Positions 3,079-35,055 of a stretch of 37,306 nucleotides of DNA are shown piece by piece. The number at the start of each line of letters is the position of its first letter. Positions within the stretch are counted from its first letter, which is position 1. The notes under the pieces were generated by a model, which did no database searches, was not told the origin of the DNA, and was given only the letters and a program-made list of their open reading frames with translations. A program made the position numbers and the translations under genes. Origin of the DNA: a virus; IMG/VR virus record IMGVR_UViG_3300031331_000005, positions 1-37,306 of that record; one strand, 5' to 3'.

Positions 3079-3780
3079 TTAACGATAGCTTTTTCTACGA
3101 CGCTGGAATCTTTGGCGAACGCCTACATCAACACGTTCCACCAACATCTGAACCTGATACATCAATGACTTCGAGTCACGATCATAATTTCCATACAGCC
3201 GTTTTTCCAGCATACTCGCCAATCGGAACGCTCGCTCAGAACTAGCATACTCGAATGCGGCTCCAACGGCAAGAACTTTATGAATCAGCGGATTGATAAC
3301 AGGCAAGTCGTCATCTTCGGAGAGATCCGTCACATCCGAAATAATTTCCGCAAACAGCCCACCCGTTACATCTTCCGTCGGAATAGGATATAGGTAAATT
3401 GCATTCCCGAATAACCTATACCCGGGCAACGTTGTTGACACTTCGGCGAGTGATCCATTCTGAATCGCTTCCGTATCGATCTCTTTATCATCGATGCGAT
3501 GGCAAAGAACATAATCATTGTCCGCGTCGTATTTTACCTCCAGCCTATTCAACGCAACAAGATCCGAAGGGAACGCATACTTCGCAACACTTTCGGACAG
3601 GTTCCATTCCACCGTATCACCCTTGAATTCCCACGTCCCCATAGCCTCAAAAACCCATCCTGTGACCTCTCGATACCATTCGTTGATAGCTGCATCCAGG
3701 CTGGCGTCCGGCCAACCTGAAACCGTCAAATCTTTTGATACCAGTCGCCTGGCACTATCACGGAGATTATCTAAAGTCAT
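3079..3780 (-). CDS. Putative head-tail connector/adaptor protein
   Basis: 233 residues. The order is a helical N-terminus with tryptophans (SGWPDASLDAAINEWYREV), a middle part with YAFPSDLVALNRLEVKYD, then a strand pair RLFGNAIYLYPIPTED and a C-terminal helical region. The 'G..I.LYPIP' strand is common in podovirus-type adaptor proteins that bind below the portal, and the gene sits downstream of capsid genes as expected. It starts at ATG 3780 with no SD. The C-terminus is very basic (QRRRKSYR). It could also be another head-completion protein. Confidence 0.6.
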   Translation of the reverse strand: MTLDNLRDSARRLVSKDLTVSGWPDASLDAAINEWYREVTGWVFEAMGTWEFKGDTVEWNLSESVAKYAFPSDLVALNRLEVKYDADNDYVLCHRIDDKEIDTEAIQNGSLAEVSTTLPGYRLFGNAIYLYPIPTEDVTGGLFAEIISDVTDLSEDDDLPVINPLIHKVLAVGAAFEYASSERAFRLASMLEKRLYGNYDRDSKSLMYQVQMLVERVDVGVRQRFQRRRKSYR

Positions 3781-4396: not shown

Positions 4397-5137
4397 TTAG
4401 AACGCAGCGATCAGCTCATCGTACTTCGGATGGCCAGCGAACAGCGTGTGTTCCAGGAATGCGGCAACCGGAGCAGGGACCATGACCGTCCGTCCCATTG
4501 GAATAACGAACACAAGACCGTTGATCTGAAACTCTTGAACGCGGACTTTCGGATTGAACGGATCCGCCGGAATGACCGTTGATACAAGCCTCGCTTCGGC
4601 GAACTTTTCGCGAACGCGACGCGCTTTCGGTCCTTCGGTTTTCCTTCCAATCTTCTTAACGATACGGAGATCACCGAAAGCATACGACTTCAAAGGATCG
4701 ACAACATCCGCTTTATTCGAGGACTTCTTAGAGGACGTTTTCTTTGCCTTTGATGCGGATGCCGGCTTCCCTTTTTTCTTTTTGGCCGGCTTCCCTTTTT
4801 TCTTTTTGGCCGGCTTCCCCCTTTTCTTTTTGGCCGACTCATCATCTTCTTCGTCCACCGCATCCTCATCTTCATCAAGAGACTCTTCGTCTCCTTCGGA
4901 CTCTTCGTCCCCTTCGGACTCTTCGTCCCCTTCGGACTCTTCGTCCCCTTCGGACTCTTCGTCCCCTTCGGACTCTTCGTCCCCTTCGGACTCTTCGTCC
5001 CCTACATCCTCATCTTCATCAAGAGACTCTTCCTCGTCAAAAGTCTCTTCATCGGAAGTTTCCTCATCGGACACGTCCCCTACATCCTCATCGAGCTGGT
5101 CGAGATCCTCGTCCTCCATCTCATTTTTCTTAGGCAT
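4397..5137 (-). CDS. Capsid-module protein with acidic and lysine-rich low-complexity blocks
   Basis: 246 residues in three parts. Residues ~1-100 are nearly all Asp/Glu/Ser and include a tandem SEGDEE hexapeptide. Next comes a Lys block with three GKPAKKKK-type octads. The globular C-terminus contains VQEFQINGLVFVIPMGRTVM and ends in a PVAAFLEHT helix. That last part resembles a small protein often encoded next to the major capsid gene in podoviruses (a 'ING..F.IP.G..V.VP.PV' pattern). Segregated negative and positive charge may bind capsid and DNA. The low-complexity parts are built from DNA tandem repeats and may vary in copy number. Confidence 0.7.
   Translation of the reverse strand: MPKKNEMEDEDLDQLDEDVGDVSDEETSDEETFDEEESLDEDEDVGDEESEGDEESEGDEESEGDEESEGDEESEGDEESEGDEESLDEDEDAVDEEDDESAKKKRGKPAKKKKGKPAKKKKGKPASASKAKKTSSKKSSNKADVVDPLKSYAFGDLRIVKKIGRKTEGPKARRVREKFAEARLVSTVIPADPFNPKVRVQEFQINGLVFVIPMGRTVMVPAPVAAFLEHTLFAGHPKYDELIAAF
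4762..4833. repeat. Three tandem 24-bp repeats (Lys-rich block)
   Basis: Units at 4762-4785, 4786-4809 and 4810-4833, nearly identical. Read on the minus strand they encode the KKKKGKPA octads of the acidic/basic capsid-module protein. Confidence 0.9.
4881..5003. repeat. Six 18-bp tandem repeats plus partial copy
   Basis: Units of GACTCTTCGTCCCCTTCG begin at 4881, 4899, 4917, 4935, 4953 and 4971, with a partial seventh at 4989; the first differs by one base. Each encodes SEGDEE on the minus strand. Being a multiple of three, gain or loss of units keeps the frame. Confidence 0.95.
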
Positions 5138-12060: not shown

Positions 12061-12354
12061 TCTAGCACACGAAGGCTCAATATCACAATACTGCCAGCTC
12101 AATATCGAAAAAAATTTTTTTTTTTCGGGGTGCCCATGGCCAAAAAAAAAATTAAAATAAGAGACGAAGAAAGAGGGGAGAGGATATGGTCCATTTTCGC
12201 TCCCGACTTCTCGCCGCCGTCTTTTGGTTGGGTGGGGGTATGGGGGTATGGATTCCATTCTGCCGGCACACTGCCAGCACCCCTCGTCCGCCTCAATCGT
12301 CACGCTAGGGATATTAAAAAACCCTAATGTTTTTGATTATTTGGCATTTTATGC
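12061..12354. other. Gene-free leader between control region and terS
   Basis: No gene is seen. Contents: an A/T homopolymer palindrome around 12108-12126 (A7T12 flanked by CG), a run of A at 12144-12153, and G-runs of 3, 5 and 5 at 12230-12250 that could form a weak quadruplex. These lie in the path of any leftward transcript to terS. Confidence 0.55.
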
Positions 12355-12379
12355 GTCGCACAAGAAAGTATTGTGCGAC
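12355..12379. promoter_or_regulatory. 9-bp perfect inverted repeat
   Basis: GTCGCACAA at 12355-12363 and TTGTGCGAC at 12371-12379, separated by 7 bases. It could be an operator or a small hairpin at the left end of the AT-rich region. No U-run follows in the plus direction, so a standard terminator is unlikely. Confidence 0.55.
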
Positions 12380-12389
12380 CCTTTGAATT

Positions 12390-12402
12390 GCTAAGTTAAG
12401 CG
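12390..12402. promoter_or_regulatory. Left copy of 13-bp inverted repeat (GCTAAGTTAAGCG)
   Basis: Exact reverse complement of the sequence at 13101-13113. The two copies bracket the AT-rich control region and point in opposite directions, suggesting binding sites for one regulator or replication initiator acting on both divergent operons. Confidence 0.55.
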
Positions 12403-12521
12403 ATAAAATCAATATACACTCAAAAAGATCAAGGCCATTTTACAATTTGATGAAGTAAAGTGAACTTAGCCAAATTTTAGCTTTTTGTAAAGTCAACTTA
12501 TCTTTTTGAATAAACCTTAGC

Positions 12522-12556
12522 AAAAACGAAAAAACCATTTCTCTTTAAATGTTTTT
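12522..12556. repeat. Direct repeat copy 1 (35 bp, imperfect)
   Basis: Begins AAAAACGAAAAAACCATTT; copy 2 at 12580-12614 begins AAAAACGAATAAACCATTT. Most positions match across 35 bases. A weaker relative (TTTTTACGAAAAACCATAT) lies near 12800. Confidence 0.7.
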
Positions 12557-12579
12557 ACATTTCTGCACAAAATAAGAAT

Positions 12580-12614
12580 AAAAACGAATAAACCATTTTT
12601 ATTTGAATGTTTTA
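12580..12614. repeat. Direct repeat copy 2 (35 bp, imperfect)
   Basis: Partner of 12522-12556; start-to-start spacing 58 bp. Possible iteron pair in the AT-rich control region. Confidence 0.7.
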
Positions 12615-12740
12615 TCAAAAATAAAAGAATCAATAATAAAAATTAAAAAGTTAATTTTTAAAGATAATTTGAGGCGCTTTATGAAAAAAAATATGATCCA
12701 ATACGTAAAATATCGCTTAACCGCCCATTGAAATTAACTA

Positions 12741-12786
12741 ATGTAATGTTTTAGCTTAATTCTAAAGGCTAAAAGTGACATTACAT
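12741..12786. promoter_or_regulatory. Interrupted 15-bp inverted repeat
   Basis: ATGTAATG-TTTTAGC (12741-12755) pairs with GCTAAAA (12768-12774) and CATTACAT (12779-12786), with a 4-base bulge in the right arm. It may be an operator or a hairpin in either transcript. The following CGGGCTTTTC gives only a short T-run, so terminator function is uncertain. Confidence 0.55.
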
Positions 12787-13100
12787 CGGGCTTTTCATGT
12801 TTTTACGAAAAACCATATATATATTTTTTTATTCTTTTTATCAAATATTCTTTACATCTTATCAAGTTTTCTTTCCTTTCTTTTTTTATATAATTTAATA
12901 ATCTAAAAATATAATATATTAAATTGTAATATCTCAAAGATTATCAATAAATAAATCATAAAATATGACATTGACATATTTTTATGACTTTTCAATACTT
13001 CAATGTAAGAACTTAACACAATGTTATTATTATTGATTAAAATATGACATTAGCACATTTTCTTTTTTAAATATAATTATCCACAATAACACTAAAACAC

Positions 13101-13113
13101 CGCTTAACTTAGC
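13101..13113. promoter_or_regulatory. Right copy of 13-bp inverted repeat (CGCTTAACTTAGC)
   Basis: Ends 4 bases before the -35 box of the rightward promoter, a typical place for an activator or repressor site. Exact inverted partner at 12390-12402. Confidence 0.6.
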
Positions 13114-13117
13114 ACAC

Positions 13118-13146
13118 TTGACAGATCATGCCAGCAGTGTTATTAT
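13118..13146 (+). promoter_or_regulatory. Strong sigma70-type promoter of early operon
   Basis: A perfect -35 TTGACA (13118-13123), a 17-base spacer and -10 TATTAT (13141-13146). Transcription would begin near 13153, leaving a leader of about 155 bases before the first gene at 13309. It is the best promoter seen in the window and faces the whole plus-strand block. Confidence 0.8.
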
Positions 13147-13308
13147 GTCCTTAACGTCAAGAAACGGCACCACGAAGCGAGACGATCCGGCCACGGCTGG
13201 ATAGCTCCCGCCAAGCCAGTATGCAGCAATGGGCGGCGTTGCTCGAGAAGGAACAGAAACCCGACCGATGCCGCGCCGCCTCCCACTCATTCCTAAGCTC
13301 CTTACACT

Positions 13309-23879: not shown

Positions 23880-23997
23880 AGCAGATGCGAAACGCATTGC
23901 CGTCATCGAGCTGTATGTACTGATGCACGGAGGCGCTCACCGCATTCGTGCACGCAGCATTGATCTTGCTGCTAGTTTTCCGGACGTGATCTCATAG
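23800..23997 (+). CDS. Small hypothetical protein with perfect Shine-Dalgarno
   Basis: 65 residues from GTG 23800. AAGGAGGTGA sits a few bases upstream, inside the preceding gene, and is the only full-strength SD I found in the window. The protein is beta-strand rich (VVLKNRVRVTVLKVPPAHIP) and has no recognised family. It ends directly before the large structured RNA region. Confidence 0.65.
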   Translation: MTQVVLKNRVRVTVLKVPPAHIPLLVEADAKRIAVIELYVLMHGGAHRIRARSIDLAASFPDVIS

Positions 23998-24011
23998 CAC
24001 TTTACGTATCT

Positions 24012-24102
24012 CGAGAGGAGATTTGACATCTCCTCTCCCCTCTATCGCTCCGGAACGATGAACCAGGAATATTTCCGAAGCGATAGAGGGGCACATTGCC
24101 CC
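24012..24102 (+). ncRNA. Three consecutive 5' hairpins of the structured RNA
   Basis: GAGAGGAGAT/ATCTCCTCTC with a 5-base loop (24012-24038); CCCCTCTATCGCT...AGCGATAGAGGGG closing a longer arm (24037-24092); GGGGC..GCCCC (24088-24102), which shares bases with the second and so may switch with it. No T-run follows, so they do not form a usual terminator for the genes upstream. Confidence 0.65.
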
Positions 24103-24168
24103 TCAGTACACGTTCCTTCTCAGTTGTTTGATTAGGCAGGCACGAGTCCATGAAGCTCTCTCGTGCCT

Positions 24169-24244
24169 CGCCTCGAGATACTGATAACGGTTGCGGCCGG
24201 AAACTCCGCAGAGTAGGGCCTTTCCCTTTCAGTATCTTTAGGCG
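24169..24244 (+). ncRNA. RNA arm 1 with pseudoknot
   Basis: Outer stem 24169-24184 with 24229-24244, 15 of 16 positions paired. Inside, TGCGG (24192-24196) pairs CCGCA (24206-24210), while GGAAA (24199-24203) pairs TTTCC (24221-24225); the two helices cross. Confidence 0.65.
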
Positions 24245-24448
24245 GGGTGCACTGAAAGTTAGATCGGCAAAGGGCTGCTGGTTTAACCGGATCCGCTATA
24301 GACGGCGCTAGCCCACCCATTGCAACTGATCCCTGACAATGGAGAGCCAAAACCATATTGAAGGATCGAAAAGCGAGAGAACCTGCCATCCAGTGAAACG
24401 TCCGAGGAATTAAATTGCCTTGGCTATAGTCGTCACTGGATGGCCTCT

Positions 24449-24545
24449 CGCCTCCACTTCGTTCGTGTGAGCTGGCCGTTCGGCGACCAGATGCCGTCTT
24501 CTTCGGGGGATGGGTTTGCTACTCGACATGAGCGGAGTGAAGGCG
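24449..24545 (+). ncRNA. RNA arm 2 with 20-position outer stem and UUCG hairpin
   Basis: 24449-24468 pairs with 24526-24545 with a single mismatch. Inside are a CTGG/CCAG hairpin stacked on GCC/GGC and a C(TTCG)G tetraloop near 24501-24506. Confidence 0.7.
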
Positions 24546-24586
24546 GGAAATGGAACCCGCGTACATAAACTTATCTAACTCTTAAT

Positions 24587-24674
24587 CTGGTCACAATATG
24601 TAGATACACACATGAGATTTCAACACATTAAAAATTCATAGCGAGGGTAAGATGTGACCAGTCTTGCCCCTCGC
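24587..24674 (+). ncRNA. H-type pseudoknot with two long stems
   Basis: CTGGTCACA (24587-24595) pairs perfectly with TGTGACCAG (24653-24661). GCGAGGGTAAG (24641-24651) pairs with CTTGCCCCTCGC (24663-24674). The order a-b-a'-b' crosses, with only one or two bases between helices, so they can stack end to end. Confidence 0.7.
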
Positions 24675-24751
24675 CTCGAAGTGGTGAGAAAAGACGGACG
24701 ATCGTGATGACAAAACCGTCCGAGTAGGTCACGGCTCACTGCTTCAAGGCG
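24672..24751 (+). ncRNA. RNA arm 3 with pseudoknot
   Basis: Outer stem 24672-24688 with 24735-24751. Inside GACGG (24693-24697)/CCGTC (24716-24720) and CGTGA (24703-24707)/TCACG (24729-24733) cross. Followed directly by the GAAA-capped hairpin 24749-24760. Confidence 0.65.
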
Positions 24752-24782
24752 GGAAACCGCAGACGAGTAAGGAGATTGAGTG
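24747..24782 (+). repeat. 36-bp exact direct repeat, copy 1
   Basis: Spans the end of arm 3, the GCGG-GAAA-CCGC hairpin, ACGAGTAA and the 5' acceptor strand. Identical to 25021-25056, 274 bases downstream. A 19-base exact repeat (24902-24920 and 25149-25167) covers the 3' acceptor strand and next CGCCT, so a whole module appears duplicated while loops diverged. Confidence 0.9.
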
Positions 24783-24912
24783 GCGGAATAGGTAGACGCT
24801 ACGAGCCGTACAGGCTTTCGGGGTCTTACAGGCGGTGAAGTGACTCCTGAGCTACTAAACCCGAATTTGGAGCCGTTTGTCATGCGAGGTGCAAATCCTC
24901 GCCTCAATCTTC
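24771..24912 (+). ncRNA. tRNA-like domain 1 (Leu-type D arm, no normal anticodon arm)
   Basis: GGAGATTGAG (24771-24780) pairs with CTCAATCTTC (24903-24912), a 10-bp acceptor-like stem. Next is TGGCGGAATAGGTAGACGC (24781-24799), identical in form to a tRNA-Leu D arm with its GG. The T arm GCGAGG/CCTCGC holds the loop TGCAAAT (24890-24896), where position 55 is G instead of T. About 85 bases replace the anticodon and variable arms, including TTCGGG/CCCGAA pairing. It is 142 bases long, too long for a tRNA, and no 5-bp/7-base anticodon arm with U33 could be drawn. Confidence 0.7.
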
Positions 24913-24915
24913 TCT

Positions 24916-25025
24916 CGCCTCATGGGTACAACATCCGAGTATACCGGACAGATAAGCCCCACCCCATATATGCACGTCTAGGGAGTGGGAGAAGAAGCGA
25001 GACGTGCCGTTGTATCCAGCAGGCG
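24916..25025 (+). ncRNA. RNA arm 4 with pseudoknot
   Basis: Outer stem 24916-24932 with 25009-25025, 15 of 17 paired. Inside, CCCCACCCC (24957-24965) pairs GGGAGTGGG (24981-24989) with a bulge, and GCACGTCT (24972-24979) pairs perfectly with AGACGTGC (25000-25007); the helices cross. Confidence 0.7.
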
Positions 25026-25056
25026 GGAAACCGCAGACGAGTAAGGAGATTGAGTG
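25021..25056 (+). repeat. 36-bp exact direct repeat, copy 2
   Basis: Partner of 24747-24782, in front of tRNA-like domain 2. Confidence 0.9.
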
Positions 25057-25159
25057 ACAGCAGAATGGTATTGCTGTGCCAGCTATATCCTAGGACTGGT
25101 AGGCCGAAGCCCCGTGCACGGGGTGGGGTCATGCAAGTTCGAATCCTGCCTCAATCTTC
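25045..25159 (+). ncRNA. tRNA-like domain 2 (canonical T loop, odd anticodon region)
   Basis: The same acceptor-like stem GGAGATTGAG/CTCAATCTTC (25045-25054, 25150-25159). D arm ACAGC-AGAATGGTATT-GCTGT (25057-25077). T arm GCAAG-TTCGAAT-CCTGC (25133-25149) with one A-C mismatch. In the anticodon place GCCAG/CTGGT closes a 13-base loop instead of 7, and a long variable-type hairpin CCCCGTGCACGGGG (25110-25123) follows. The elbow sequences could form, but decoding seems unlikely. Confidence 0.7.
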
Positions 25160-25196
25160 TCTCGCCTTTGCTTCACTCAACACGAGCGGAGCGAAG

Positions 25197-25700
25197 ATGA
25201 GAATTATGCAAAAATACCCTCTAATCCTCGATGTGTGTTGCGGCGGCCGCACGTTCTGGTTCAATAAGCACGACCCCCGAGCTCTATTCTTAGATAATCG
25301 TGTATTTCCAAAGCAGGTCATCTGGGAAAAAGGGGATCAGCAGAGACTCTTTGAAGTGAAGCCGGATAAGATCATGGACTTCCGCGATCTCGAGCTCGCC
25401 TCAAATACATTCAAGCTCGTTGTTTTCGATCCACCGCATATATTAAAACGAAACGGGAAGACTGGATGGATGGGAAAGAAGTATGGCTCATTGAATAAAG
25501 AAACGTGGCAGGACGATATCCGCAAGGGATTCTCTGAGTGTTTCCGCGTTCTGCAAAAAGAAGGGGTGCTGATATTCAAGTGGTCGGAAATAGAGATCCC
25601 GCTCCGTAAAATACTTGAGCTCACGGATGAAAAACCTTTATTTGGCCACAAGAGCGGAAAGAACAGCAAGACGCACTGGATAGCATTCATAAAATCCTAA
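25197..25700 (+). CDS. Class I SAM-dependent methyltransferase
   Basis: 167 residues from ATG 25197, with GGAG five bases upstream (25188-25191). The frame is open back to 24840, but that part lies in the structured RNA. Motif I DVCCGGRTFWF (12-22) binds SAM; motif IV FDPPH (77-81) is a DPP(Y/H)-type catalytic loop as in N6-adenine or N4-cytosine amino-methylases. Short phage relatives modify DNA, but RNA as target cannot be excluded given its place after the RNA. Target unknown. Confidence 0.8.
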   Translation: MRIMQKYPLILDVCCGGRTFWFNKHDPRALFLDNRVFPKQVIWEKGDQQRLFEVKPDKIMDFRDLELASNTFKLVVFDPPHILKRNGKTGWMGKKYGSLNKETWQDDIRKGFSECFRVLQKEGVLIFKWSEIEIPLRKILELTDEKPLFGHKSGKNSKTHWIAFIKS

Positions 25701-29694: not shown

Positions 29695-29839
29695 CACGGA
29701 AAAAAAAGAGTGCCCTGAGTGTCATGCACTCATTTATTTCTATCCTGTCGGCTATACGAATGCGGACGGTGAATGGGAATACGATCACATGGAGTGCCCT
29801 GTCTGCGGCTACGTTGCATCTTCCGAGGACACTGGTTAG
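29681..29839 (+). CDS. Small zinc-ribbon protein
   Basis: 52 residues with CPEC (11-14) and CPVCGY (39-44), a standard four-cysteine zinc ribbon. It overlaps the resolvase gene by 14 bases. It is the last plus-strand gene; its TAG shares bases with the TAA of the convergent 1739-residue gene. Confidence 0.65.
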   Translation: MKIPDTEKKECPECHALIYFYPVGYTNADGEWEYDHMECPVCGYVASSEDTG

Positions 29840-32800
29840 CGCTTACGGCGCTTGCGTTTTTCATTTTTCGCGGCCCAAGCGTCTTTCATTCCCTCGAATG
29901 GCGTAAGCATCATATCCGATACGCCCAGGGCACGCGTCGCTGTTCGGAGCAGATAGAACGTCCCTTCGTCAAAATCCCCTGACGCGAATTGTTGCGCTGC
30001 TCGTTGGATACCTTCTGAAAAAACATTCAGCGTGACCCCTGGACGAAATTCGTAATTTTTCCCCATCAAGACATTCTGCAGAATGGTATTGATAAAATCT
30101 CCGATGAGGAAGAATCCCGTGGCTTGTTCTGTCATCGCGATCGCCGATCCCATCGCAGCCTCATGAAGCTTGAACACGCTCGTGGCCCGCTTTCGCGTTT
30201 CCTCCGCTTTCTCCTTTTCTCCCATGGCTTCCGTTACGGCCGCTTTAACCATCTTGCCCGGGACGCTCGCGCCAGCACGCAACCAGTAGAACAGGAGCCC
30301 CTGCAGGAACACGGTGTACCCGATATATTTTGTCGCCTGCGTCTTTGTCAGCCGTCCGTCGCGCATGAGGCGCACCGCATCGATCATGCTGCTCGCAATC
30401 TTCATGTTCTGCTGCGTCAATTCCGCAAAGAATTTTGTTCCCGCTTCCTGCGAGAATCGCGGCTTGCCGATAAACGTCATATCCGGCTGCGTACGGAGGA
30501 TAACGGAATTAACGACCTCGCCGGCGCGCACGTATGCGTCCTTTTCCGACATGCCCTCGCGTCCATATTTGCGCACCAATCCCCAAAAGATGCCGGACGC
30601 GCCGCGCATGTTGACGTACTGGTCCGCTGGTTCCGTTGTGAGGCGCATCCCGAGATCCGCTGTTGATTTGATCTTACGCACTGTCCAGTGTTTACTAGGC
30701 CGCTCTGAAATTTCCGATACGGGACGCAGCCGGCGGAGTCGTAGGACGTTTACGTGTTTCTCTAAAATCTGACGACGAGACTTGTTCCAGCGGTTTCGTA
30801 ATCCCCACTCGTAATCTCTTAACGGAATATTCATTGATCCCGATTCCGCTCGATATTGCGCGTTCGCGGAAAACTGCCCAACAGCAACACGGACATTCGA
30901 GAGGATGCCCTTGAACAAGGCGTTACTCAACTGGTCGACGCCCGTCGGATTCCATTGATCCTTACCGCTCTTCACACGACCGCCTCCGGTCAAGTTTTCC
31001 GTATGCCAGTCAACGGTTTCAAGAAACGCTTTTCCGTATTTCGTCTCCATCGCTCCGCGGAAGTCTTTGTCTCGAATAATCGCATTCAGATCCGTGAGAT
31101 CTTTTGCCGTCTGCTCATACCATGTCGCGCGTTGCACGTACCGGCGGTATTCCTGAAACGGGTCAACGAGCTTCAACGCGGAGAATACGCGAGGATCCGT
31201 CCGACGAACCATGCCCGGATCAATGGAAACGCTGTACTGTTTTAGATCATTCAGTCCGGATTCAGCGAATCCCGCAACACCTCGGTCATCTATGTGCATG
31301 CCTTCGTCGTGCATAGGGCCGGCGTATCGCTCCCGATACCCGAGCGGCACGCCGCTACGCTCTTCAAAGACCGGTGCGAGCTTGTCCCATAAGGGCGCGT
31401 ATCCGTTGTCAATGAGCCACGTCCCCATCTGCTTATCTTCGGGCTTCAAGAGATCGTAGACAGCTTCCCTGATTTCGGGCGTCCACGTATTCCCGCGCGT
31501 GATCCGTTCGCTTCCGACCTTCGTCTGGTCATACATCCACATCGCAAGCGCGTTGTTGCGGCTCACGCGTACGGCAATATCTTCCCCTTTCGTGTTCTTA
31601 AAAACGCCAAGATCGTGAACCGGTTCCATATCGATCTGCGCATGGATCCACTTCTTTTCGCTCCCATACAATTCGGTTCCGGTCTTTTGAAATCGCTCCA
31701 TGTAGTCCGTATATTCGATTAAAGCATCGATACCTTTTCTTGAAACGCGGTCTACCAGCTGTTCAAATCTTCCACCAACGCGCCGAGCGATCGCCTGGTA
31801 CGCAGAATGGTTGTTCAAATACCCGCGAAGCTTCTCGCGCCAATTACTCGCCGCCTTGGCGGGATCGATACGCGTTTCAAGCGGACGCGTCGGAGAATTG
31901 TACACTTCTTCAACGATTTCTTTCGTCACCTCGTTTTGTCGCGCGCGCCGCGCATCGATCATCTCGTTCCGCTTCGTCTTCCCTTCCGTGACATAGGACT
32001 GGATCGTTTCGAGCGTGTAGCGCAACTGCGGCAACGTTTGATCTTTCATGCCGCCAAGATTCAACAAATCGATCTGCCGCGCGATCTCTTCGGGCATCTC
32101 ATACGAAGCCTCACCAGATGCACGCTGCATCTCGTCCGCTTTTCGCGTTAATTCCACCATGCGCCTGTTCACCTCCGCTCGATCCATGCTCACGTATTCC
32201 CTGACAGCATCGATGCGCGCCTGATGTTCCGCCGTCAGCTTCCCGCGCGGCAGCCCCGCCCGGAGAGCGACCTTCGCGTTCTGCAGTGTTTTCTTTATCT
32301 TTTTCTGCAATCGTTTCCGTTCAAACGTATTCCACTTCGCGCGGACATCATCAATGATCTCCGCCGCACGTTCGGCGTCTTTGACATTTTTCAACTTGAC
32401 CAAAAAACTTCCGCGCACTTCTTTTGGAACACGGTTCTCGCGCATGAAGTCAACGAGAATCTGTTGAGCAGCCGCCTTGTTATTGAACTTCTGTCGCAGC
32501 CTGGCTTTCGCACGTTCCGCGGACTGCTTGAGAAAAGCCCGTTCGAGTGTCTCTTTAACCTTGCGGCGCGACAGGGAGGTTTTCTGCTTTTCCTCCATGC
32601 GCTTCCGATCGGCCTTTCGCAGATTCTTCTGCCGGTCAACGGCCGTTTCTCGCTTTTCTTGCCGGCGCTTTATTTCCTGCTCCACGGTTTCGCGAGCCTT
32701 GCGCTCTGCCTTTGTCTCGCGTGGCAAGGCTTCATTTTCTGATTTGGCGCGGCTCAACTCTTGCCGGATCATTCGTTCTTTATTCAATCGCTCGCGGAAC

Positions 32801-35055
32801 GCATCGAGCACCTTGTCCGAATCAGGGAGATTCTCGATAGCCCGTTCCGCACGCTGCCGTCGCAGGATCTCTGCACCTGTTGCCGTGCGGCCGCGCATCA
32901 CGCGCTCGCGTTCCTTCATATCTCCGCGCAGCCGTGAACTCAATCCTGCCACATCCATTTCCTCGAGCTCGGGCGTTCGTGAGACGCGACGCTTCCAATC
33001 TTTGTACTGCTCCTCTCTGCGCTCTTCAAATTTCAAATTTTCACGTTCCGTCTTTAAACGTTCTCGCGTCTCCTTATACCGCTGTTCCGTCTCCCGCCGT
33101 GCGATAACACGATCCGCCATATCCTCTGCGCGCTGCTGGAGCTCTTCCGTGGCCGCTCGCTTGATCGTTTTCGGCTTCGGAGTGTTCTCGAAAATATATC
33201 GTTCAGCCCGGTCCTCGAGATCCCGACGGATAGCGTCAAGCTCTGACTGGTTCTGCGCTTTTTCCGCTTCACGAATACGGTTCAAATCATCTGGCGTGAT
33301 CGTTTTCACGTGCGCCTCTTCATGGACCATAATCGTTTCCTTATATCGCTTCATGAGATCGCTTGGACGCTCTCCGGTCTTAGCCGTAAACGTTCGCTTA
33401 CGCTTGCCTCCGACAACGATCGTGTCGCCATTGAGGAGCTTGGAAACATCTTGCGCGATCACAGGATCATTGAAAACGATTTCTCCGGTCGCTGAATCAA
33501 AATATGCCGGACGATCATCGTACACATCGTCAACGTGCCGCGTCTTAATTTCCGACTTCGGATCGTCCTTTTGGATCGCTTCAATGATTTCACGTTCAAA
33601 CGCATATTGCGTAACAGGATCTTCAAGCTCGGCCGCCATGCGCTTTGTTCGGGACGATACCGGCGTTTCGAGGACCGCTTCAATTTTTCCGACCTCTTGC
33701 ACCGCTTCACCGAAAGACTGCGCCTGATCTGCAAGCTGGACAGCCCGAGACATCTTATCGCCCCATGTGGCCGCCCATTGTGGCCGTAGAGCAGAGTTAT
33801 CCTTGATTTGGGCATAAGAGGACAAGAGACGCTCTGAAACGCTTAGAGCCTCAATTTTGGAGCGTGAGGCCATATCGTCAATAACCTCGTAATCCTTGAC
33901 TTTCTGACGATATTTTTCTTTGATCTCCGAGACAGTCGCTTTTTGGGGATCTTTAACGCCAAGCATGTCCCCGGCAGTCTTGAGTGTGTCCTTAATCGTC
34001 ATGCGTTCCTGAATGACAGACCGGCCTTTTCCTACAGCTTTGCCCGCTCCGTGGAACGCGAGGATGATCGCGCCCAGGCCGGCCATCTCCTTAATCGAAT
34101 CGAGCTCCTCCGGCGTCGCATTCGGATTAACGAGTCCGTAGCTCCCTGCAGCGATCGATCCGCCGGCGGCCTGAATGGATCCGAAAACGTTCTGCTCGAC
34201 AGCCTCTGCCCCATGTTCTCCGGCCTTTCTCCCTTTTTCCCCGCCAACAGTCGCACCGGCAAGTCCTCCGATCTCGGGCATAGCGGACATCGCCTGGAGC
34301 ATTAAAAATCCACCGGTTAGGTTGATCGCGTTTTCAAATGCTGACGGTGCAAGCGAAAAAAACTGTTCCCGCTCCGTCTCCTTTGTCGATGCTTCCTTAA
34401 TCGCTCCCCCTGCCCGCTGAAAGGTTTGGATGATGTTATCTGCCACGCCTCCGACGAAACGCACGGCGGCGTTCACCGTCGATCCGGACGGTTGAAAAGG
34501 AACGCCGACAACAGGAGTATTTTCTTTTTGTTGCGGTGCATCTTTTCGGAAATCCCGAAGAGACGTTGTGATGCTTCGCATGGACGAAAAAAAGTGTTCA
34601 ACATTGTCGCTCGCTTCAAGCACGTCTTTGTTAATGCGTCCAATCTCTTTGTACGCCTCAATCTGCTCGCGTGTCTTTGGGTGATATGCCGTGGAGAGCG
34701 ATGAAATGACTGCATGCTCCTTTTTCAAGCGATCAATCGTACTCTCTTCCAGGGCGCTTTTTCGAGGCCCCTGGCCAACAGGGCCAACCGGTTCCTTTGG
34801 AGACGGTTCCGTCTTTGACTTCCGAAACGCGAACTTTGATTTGATATCTTCCGCTGCCTGTCGAGGTGACTTGCTGGATGCAACCTTGCTGGGTGCCGCC
34901 TTACCGCCGCCAATCCGTCCATTGATAATCGACGAAATTTCGTCGAGTGACTTTCGACTTCCCGTTTGATTCAATGTAGGCGACGGAATGTTACTTCCGC
35001 CGCCAATCCGTCCATTGATAATCGACGAAATTTCGTCGAGTGACTTTCGAGGCAT
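29836..35055 (-). CDS. Giant polyvalent virion protein with zincin motif
   Basis: 1739 residues. In order: a duplicated peptide RKSLDEISSIINGRIGGG (3-20 and 34-51); a Gly/Ala hydrophobic region (~240-330); a J-domain-like helix set, KDTLKTAGDMLGVKDPQKAT then IKEKYRQKVKDY (~350-400) without HPD; a zinc-peptidase motif H578-E-E-A-H582 after AYFDSATGEIVFND; long Arg/Glu coiled coils (~620-1000); and a C-terminal part with a membrane-like helix near 1585 and a basic tail KRKRRKR. Such giant multi-domain proteins are packed in podovirus heads and injected with the DNA. Peptidase activity is inferred from HExxH only. The start at 35055 lies 9 bases from the previous stop. Confidence 0.8.
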   Translation of the reverse strand: MPRKSLDEISSIINGRIGGGSNIPSPTLNQTGSRKSLDEISSIINGRIGGGKAAPSKVASSKSPRQAAEDIKSKFAFRKSKTEPSPKEPVGPVGQGPRKSALEESTIDRLKKEHAVISSLSTAYHPKTREQIEAYKEIGRINKDVLEASDNVEHFFSSMRSITTSLRDFRKDAPQQKENTPVVGVPFQPSGSTVNAAVRFVGGVADNIIQTFQRAGGAIKEASTKETEREQFFSLAPSAFENAINLTGGFLMLQAMSAMPEIGGLAGATVGGEKGRKAGEHGAEAVEQNVFGSIQAAGGSIAAGSYGLVNPNATPEELDSIKEMAGLGAIILAFHGAGKAVGKGRSVIQERMTIKDTLKTAGDMLGVKDPQKATVSEIKEKYRQKVKDYEVIDDMASRSKIEALSVSERLLSSYAQIKDNSALRPQWAATWGDKMSRAVQLADQAQSFGEAVQEVGKIEAVLETPVSSRTKRMAAELEDPVTQYAFEREIIEAIQKDDPKSEIKTRHVDDVYDDRPAYFDSATGEIVFNDPVIAQDVSKLLNGDTIVVGGKRKRTFTAKTGERPSDLMKRYKETIMVHEEAHVKTITPDDLNRIREAEKAQNQSELDAIRRDLEDRAERYIFENTPKPKTIKRAATEELQQRAEDMADRVIARRETEQRYKETRERLKTERENLKFEERREEQYKDWKRRVSRTPELEEMDVAGLSSRLRGDMKERERVMRGRTATGAEILRRQRAERAIENLPDSDKVLDAFRERLNKERMIRQELSRAKSENEALPRETKAERKARETVEQEIKRRQEKRETAVDRQKNLRKADRKRMEEKQKTSLSRRKVKETLERAFLKQSAERAKARLRQKFNNKAAAQQILVDFMRENRVPKEVRGSFLVKLKNVKDAERAAEIIDDVRAKWNTFERKRLQKKIKKTLQNAKVALRAGLPRGKLTAEHQARIDAVREYVSMDRAEVNRRMVELTRKADEMQRASGEASYEMPEEIARQIDLLNLGGMKDQTLPQLRYTLETIQSYVTEGKTKRNEMIDARRARQNEVTKEIVEEVYNSPTRPLETRIDPAKAASNWREKLRGYLNNHSAYQAIARRVGGRFEQLVDRVSRKGIDALIEYTDYMERFQKTGTELYGSEKKWIHAQIDMEPVHDLGVFKNTKGEDIAVRVSRNNALAMWMYDQTKVGSERITRGNTWTPEIREAVYDLLKPEDKQMGTWLIDNGYAPLWDKLAPVFEERSGVPLGYRERYAGPMHDEGMHIDDRGVAGFAESGLNDLKQYSVSIDPGMVRRTDPRVFSALKLVDPFQEYRRYVQRATWYEQTAKDLTDLNAIIRDKDFRGAMETKYGKAFLETVDWHTENLTGGGRVKSGKDQWNPTGVDQLSNALFKGILSNVRVAVGQFSANAQYRAESGSMNIPLRDYEWGLRNRWNKSRRQILEKHVNVLRLRRLRPVSEISERPSKHWTVRKIKSTADLGMRLTTEPADQYVNMRGASGIFWGLVRKYGREGMSEKDAYVRAGEVVNSVILRTQPDMTFIGKPRFSQEAGTKFFAELTQQNMKIASSMIDAVRLMRDGRLTKTQATKYIGYTVFLQGLLFYWLRAGASVPGKMVKAAVTEAMGEKEKAEETRKRATSVFKLHEAAMGSAIAMTEQATGFFLIGDFINTILQNVLMGKNYEFRPGVTLNVFSEGIQRAAQQFASGDFDEGTFYLLRTATRALGVSDMMLTPFEGMKDAWAAKNEKRKRRKR
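34904..34957. repeat. 54-bp perfect direct repeat, copy A, with 18-bp palindrome
   Basis: Identical to 34997-35050, offset 93 bp (31 codons). Contains the perfect palindrome TCGACGAAATTTCGTCGA at 34929-34946. Encodes the duplicated peptide near the start of the giant protein. Confidence 0.95.
34997..35050. repeat. 54-bp perfect direct repeat, copy B, with 18-bp palindrome
   Basis: Palindrome at 35022-35039. It lies at codons 2-20 of the giant gene, so as mRNA it would form hairpins close to the start codon. Confidence 0.95.

Follow-up and report, generated by a model that had tools for sequence, protein, structure and literature searches.

The virus record IMGVR_UViG_3300031331_000005 from IMG/VR is linear and may be a fragment; its 37,306 bases make up the whole stretch of DNA analysed here (the window). 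It encodes tailed-phage proteins, among them a major head protein, terminase, primase-helicase, helicase, exonuclease and DNA methyltransferase. Only distant relatives of the phage itself were found, and protein-anchored searches (exonuclease, primase, major capsid, terminase and methyltransferase) returned only distant or single-gene relatives. Between a short ORF that ends at 23997 and the methyltransferase gene lies about 1.2 kb of DNA without recognisable coding sequence, and it is here that the structured region is located (Table 1). A protein-coding origin of the region was considered and rejected, as stops occur in all six frames and its short ORFs have no family matches.

The two tRNA-like domains near the methyltransferase gene had been picked out in a sequence-only reading; they do not stand alone but form the 3' end of a structured region that spans about 1.1 kb. 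For 24130–25200 the MFE z-score was -6.7 on the plus strand and -4.1 on the minus strand, against -2.0 and -0.4 for two coding controls, and there were 11 strong local helices in 24001–25205 where shuffled sequences gave an expectation of 0.55. Four modules recur along the region, each with a different helix sequence, and their arms pair at 10/10 positions within a module and at 5–8/10 between modules, a pattern that amounts to covariation among paralogous modules within one molecule; since no homologue was found, the covariation evidence is of this between-module kind only. The strand TGTGACCAG (24653–24661) of the first candidate pseudoknot sits in the loop of a hairpin at 24641–24674, and module 3 runs into the hairpin GCGG-GAAA-CCGC at 24749–24760. 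Over 29 bases the terminal hairpin shares 79% identity with the module 2 3' arm (24521–24549). A sigma-70 scan gave one promoter-like site, fewer than expected, and terminator-like sites numbered six against 2.3 expected, none of them convincing at the end of the RNA.

Table 1. Positions in the window of the structured region, its component elements and the adjoining gene.
Feature	Position	Strand	Remarks
Whole structured non-coding region	about 24130..25200	+	Fold z-score, helix excess, no coding content; may begin near 24000
Upstream hairpin CCCCTCTATCGCT.../...AGCGATAGAGGGG	24037..24091	+	13 perfect pairs; possibly part of the RNA
Module 1, CTCGCCT - helix - AGGCGGG	24167..24246	+	z -4.4; arms pair 10/10
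Hairpin GCCATCCAGTGA/TCACTGGATGGC	24385..24444	+	12 perfect pairs, z -4.3
Module 2, CTCGCCT - helix - AGGCGGG	24447..24547	+	z -3.5; own arms pair 10/10
Candidate pseudoknot, CTGGTCACA (24587–24595) with TGTGACCAG (24653–24661)	24587..24661	+	9 perfect pairs; putative
Module 3, CTCGCCT - helix - AGGCGGG	24670..24753	+	z -3.8; own arms pair 10/10
tRNA-like domain 1	24764..24917	+	Outer stem 24764–24780/24903–24917; D arm 24783–24799; T arm 24884–24902
Module 4, CTCGCCT - helix - AGGCGGG, between the domains	24914..25027	+	z -3.6; own arms pair 10/10
Candidate H-type pseudoknot in module 4	24957..25007	+	CCCCACCCC/GGGAGTGGG interleaved with GCACGTCT (24972–24979)/AGACGTGC (25000–25007); putative, from the helix list
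tRNA-like domain 2	25038..25164	+	Outer stem 25038–25054/25150–25164; D arm 25057–25077; T arm 25133–25149
Terminal hairpin, shortened copy of the module 2 arms	25161..25200	+	z -3.9
DNA methyltransferase gene	25206..25700	+	Downstream of the structured region; phrog_954, 2.4e-66; start could be 25197

The terminal hairpin also covers GGAG (25188–25191) and, in frame with the methyltransferase, an ATG at 25197, and by pairing these it could hide a ribosome-binding site, so that the whole would act in cis as a 5' leader controlling translation of the methyltransferase. This is quite unlikely, given that homologous methyltransferases start nearer 25206, with a weak ribosome-binding site that the hairpin includes only in part, and that no such leader was seen in the methyltransferase relatives among the loci examined. 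We know of no precedent for a 1.1-kb leader that contains two tRNA-like domains.

The two domains resemble tRNA in considerable detail. Acceptor stem, D arm and T arm lie in register in both: seven inner pairs stand as the acceptor stem, TG occupies positions 8–9, and a D arm with GG follows. In domain 1, CGAG (24764–24767), TA and AGGAGATTGAG (24770–24780) face CTCAATCTTCT (24903–24913) and CTCG (24914–24917), and the outer stem of domain 2 is identical to this. The stem common to both is one pair longer than the 10 bp first reported, having 11 bp (one G.U), and a 2-nt TA bulge on the 5' side separates it from the CGAG/CTCG extension, which had been correctly recognised in both domains. The helix runs beyond the end of a mature tRNA, and no CCA is encoded, the 3' strand reading CTCAATC-TTCT-CTCG. 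The D and T arms, described earlier as having GG and nearly TTCGAAT loops, were also found as claimed. Domain 1 has the D arm T-G-GCG-GAATAGGTAGA-CGC (24781–24799, counted from the preceding TG) and the T arm GCGAGG-TGCAAAT-CCTCGC, the latter extended by one pair against the 3' acceptor strand; in domain 2 they are ACAGC-AGAATGGTATT-GCTGT and GCAAG-TTCGAAT-CCTGC, this T arm having one A.C mismatch and lying flush to the 3' acceptor strand. The Leu-type character ascribed to the first D arm is borne out by a blastn comparison in which it matched the corresponding D-arm sequence of E. coli leuV/leuP/leuQ (tRNA-Leu(CAG)) at 19/20 bases.

It is at the anticodon position that the domains part from tRNA. 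Domain 1 carries there the hairpin GAGCC-GTACA-GGCTT (24803–24817), with a 5-nt loop and a pairing probability of about 0.9–1, and domain 2 the hairpin CCAG-(13 nt)-CTGG (25079–25099), the loop of which contains the palindrome TCCTAGGA; 3' of the latter is a variable-arm-like hairpin, CCCCG-TGCA-CGGGG (25110–25123). Palindromic loops (GUAC, UCCUAGGA and GUGCAC) occupy the old anticodon and variable-arm positions. The earlier description of elbows without a decoding arm holds in that the elbows are real and there is no usable anticodon, but the position is filled by a hairpin in both domains; the earlier description had the region replaced by about 85 bases in one domain and by a 13-base loop plus hairpin in the other.

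Comparison of the domains with each other showed flanks that are identical at 56/56 positions (36/36 plus 20/20) around interiors in which only 38/88 aligned bases agree, so that the stems of the two domains are interchangeable. Pairing alone would permit compensatory drift, yet the flanks are identical, and the stem sequence itself therefore appears to be held constant, whether via strand exchange between the domains, a binding partner or recent recombination.

Chance does not account for the resemblance. A purpose-built scanner demanded 7/7 acceptor pairs, T8-R9, a D arm with GG, a T[T/G]CRA T loop, and a T arm flush to the acceptor. It found exactly two sites in the window, the two domains, where 300 dinucleotide shuffles led to an expectation of 0.0033 mean matches per window, although the T[T/G]C variant of the T loop was allowed with domain 1 already known. 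Applied to 322 kb of fetched loci, it returned, besides copies of both domains, four sites only, all of them real tRNA genes. Such clear tRNA ancestry, especially in the Leu-type D arm, together with degenerate anticodon arms, might be expected of two decayed tRNA genes from a phage tRNA array. Decay, however, does not yield 11-bp perfect stems with CGAG/CTCG that are identical twice around diverged interiors, nor does it make the structured modules that surround the domains, and this origin is decidedly improbable.

The domains were rejected as decoding tRNAs. Their loops at the anticodon position are of 5 and 13 nt rather than the 7-nt loop with U33 of a tRNA, ARAGORN in its default mode found 0 tRNA genes in the window, and the window matched none of the Rfam models (GOLLD, ROOL, tmRNA, tRNA and YrlA included), even with E values as high as 10 allowed; decoding is very unlikely. 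What the domains have in common with a class II tRNA such as tRNA-Leu is the Leu-type D arm of domain 1, the long variable-arm-like region of domain 2, the T loops and the seven acceptor pairs; they differ from it in lacking a 7-nt anticodon loop and a CCA, in having an acceptor helix that continues outward, and in being negative by ARAGORN and Rfam. The parallel that had been drawn with tmRNA is apt insofar as a tRNA-like domain lies within a larger RNA, but there are two domains here instead of one, D stems are present, and no tag reading frame was predicted. tmRNA identity was itself rejected, with 0 genes by ARAGORN -m and none in the window by Rfam.

The ARAGORN check recommended in the sequence-only reading was less clear-cut in intron mode. 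At the default threshold this gave a single match in the window, a tRNA-Val(UAC) at 24773–25159 with a 302-nt intron and a score of 101.4, and any such match was obtained in only 1 of 100 shuffled windows. Taken literally, the locus would hold an interrupted tRNA, its 5' half in domain 1 and its 3' half in domain 2. That is highly improbable: there is an A.A mismatch in the anticodon stem CGAGC/GCACG, G stands at position 33 instead of U, a Leu-type D arm would be combined with a Val anticodon, the 'intron' includes module 4 together with a D arm and an entire T arm, and no group I or II intron core was found between the halves by Rfam at E up to 10. With identical acceptors in both domains, ARAGORN is able to join the better D arm (domain 1) to the better T arm (domain 2), and the match, not accepted as a gene, is regarded as a further sign of tRNA likeness.

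The same identity of the acceptor strands bears on how the RNA may fold, since the 3' strand of domain 1 has a possible partner in the 5' strand of domain 2. In full-length nested folding these two strands prefer to pair, around module 4, and the swapped topology is closed on the outside by the remaining two, 5' of domain 1 and 3' of domain 2. For the 3' part, the local-domain and swapped-strand topologies differ by only about 3 kcal/mol, which is inside model error. When the tRNA-like arms were forced within the domains, the cost was 1.4 and 2.3 kcal/mol above the MFE of each domain, and in domain 2 folded alone the D and T arms were disfavoured, with a pairing probability of about 0.05. In both topologies an acceptor helix still has a D arm and a T arm beside it, so the elbow could form in either.

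Searches for the RNA in other genomes were negative. Blastn of the region against phages and plasmids gave no relative, and neither did a motif scan of prokaryote genome contigs; in viral contigs, motifs in exact and relaxed form matched only coding or unrelated sequence. The RNA was also not found in the records of the protein-anchored relatives. One contig (G001), with a methyltransferase 64% identical, has long hairpins at 1420–1780, where no genes are obvious, and its weak YrlA match looks spurious. A distant relative (G003; IMGVR_UViG_3300030397_000152) carries at 3082–3500 a row of three Y RNA-like units that match YrlA. The best two had E values of 1.7e-8 and 2.8e-6 in one search, below the curated cut-off, and another search gave 1.4e-6, 2.3e-4 and 0.008 for the three, all below the gathering score. 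Each unit has a T arm, acceptor-like stem and D arm in permuted order, with repeated CGCTTGTTCCCTCA...GAGTGGCGAAGAT sequences between the units, and ARAGORN found no tRNA in the scanned overlapping part of the record. These units are a parallel to the window RNA, not a demonstrated homologue.

Because of these units, the window RNA was also tested for YrlA membership, and no RF02553 match was obtained at E up to 1 or 10. The likeness to YrlA lies in a tRNA-like module with a T arm, an acceptor-like stem and a D arm but no anticodon, and the swapped pairing would even give the same order, T1 - stem - D2; the differences, beyond the lack of a match, are that the acceptor hairpin would be extended by the 120 nt of module 4, and that a second D arm and a second T arm would be left over. 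In bacterial Y RNAs, the tRNA-like module is thought to bind protein as a tRNA mimic, and a TTCGAAT T loop with G53-C61, together with the GG of the D loop, are the recognition elements of elbow-binding enzymes. tRNA mimicry and a structural-module role, the two possibilities raised at the outset, are both plausible. As a mimic, the elbows would bind a tRNA-handling protein of the host or phage (a modification enzyme, synthetase, nuclease or Ro-like protein), the rest of the RNA serving as scaffold or decoy. The T loop and D-loop GG favour this, as do the units of the distant relative in their tRNA-permuted order, but the window RNA has no YrlA match, and the window ORFs tested include none that is recognisable as Ro/Rsr or another RNA-handling gene; mimicry as the main role is unlikely.

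A closer analogy is offered by GOLLD and ROOL, RNAs for which we know of no function and which are, to our knowledge, repeatedly found near tRNA genes. Like them, the window RNA is, by predicted structure, a large and highly structured phage non-coding RNA: it is phage-encoded, falls in or above the 0.6–1 kb range, and has many helices, with candidate pseudoknots and loop-loop contacts. It differs in giving no match to either Rfam model at E up to 10, and in having tRNA-like parts built into its stems with the anticodon lost. In GOLLD and ROOL, tRNAs adjoin the RNA or sit in the GOLLD linker, kissing loops and A-minor contacts fix the angles between RNA rods, and loop-loop contacts allow RNA-only assemblies to form (PMC12286853).

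The tRNA-like anatomy occurs in register and twice, the stems are interchangeable, the pattern is non-random and the surrounding modules are repeated. These features are consistent with tRNA-derived elbow modules that play an architectural part in a large, intricately folded plus-strand RNA of the phage, some 1.1 kb long, an explanation to which we give about even weight. It presupposes that the region is transcribed as a single molecule. A class II, Leu-like tRNA may have been captured by a large RNA, its acceptor stem being made continuous with helices of that RNA (CGAG/CTCG and further out) and its anticodon arm turned into other hairpins, with the module then duplicated. If the elbows form, an L-shaped corner would be locked by each D loop/T loop pair, setting the orientation of the neighbouring rods, and the palindromic loops GUAC, UCCUAGGA and GUGCAC, along with the exchangeable stems, could pair two domains or two copies of the RNA, perhaps allowing assembly. 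The best reading, drawn from the one sequence known, is that the RNA would, by analogy, work like the GOLLD/ROOL class without belonging to any family tested. It could be speculated further, though this is rather doubtful, that a new class of giant phage RNA is represented, one that uses captured tRNAs as duplicated corners; through their identical, exchangeable acceptor stems and palindromic loops, the domains would swap partners inside one RNA or between copies and so build or switch an RNA-only assembly. If real, the window RNA would be a large phage RNA that no Rfam family covers, and an example from nature of tRNA parts put to a new use as structural corners, with decoding removed. tRNA elbows built into an RNA frame would also provide a concrete, testable link between ornate phage RNAs and tRNA genes. 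It would show, too, that elements of this kind can be missed completely by tRNA finders and Rfam.

Several other parts of the window drew attention. The 1739-aa ORF at 29836–35055 on the minus strand matched nothing in Pfam at E 0.01 and nothing convincingly in PHROG. Between divergent gene blocks, about 0.9 kb (12304–13220) is devoid of ORFs of at least 100 aa and folds weakly (MFE -14 for 12801–13000), and is likely to be a regulatory or origin region. Beside the major head protein gene, a 246-aa ORF contains tandem repeats of 17–18 nt, GGACGAAGAGTCCGAAGG (4801–5000, minus strand), which specify an acidic repeat and, as RNA, fold into a very regular rod with a z-score of -7.4.
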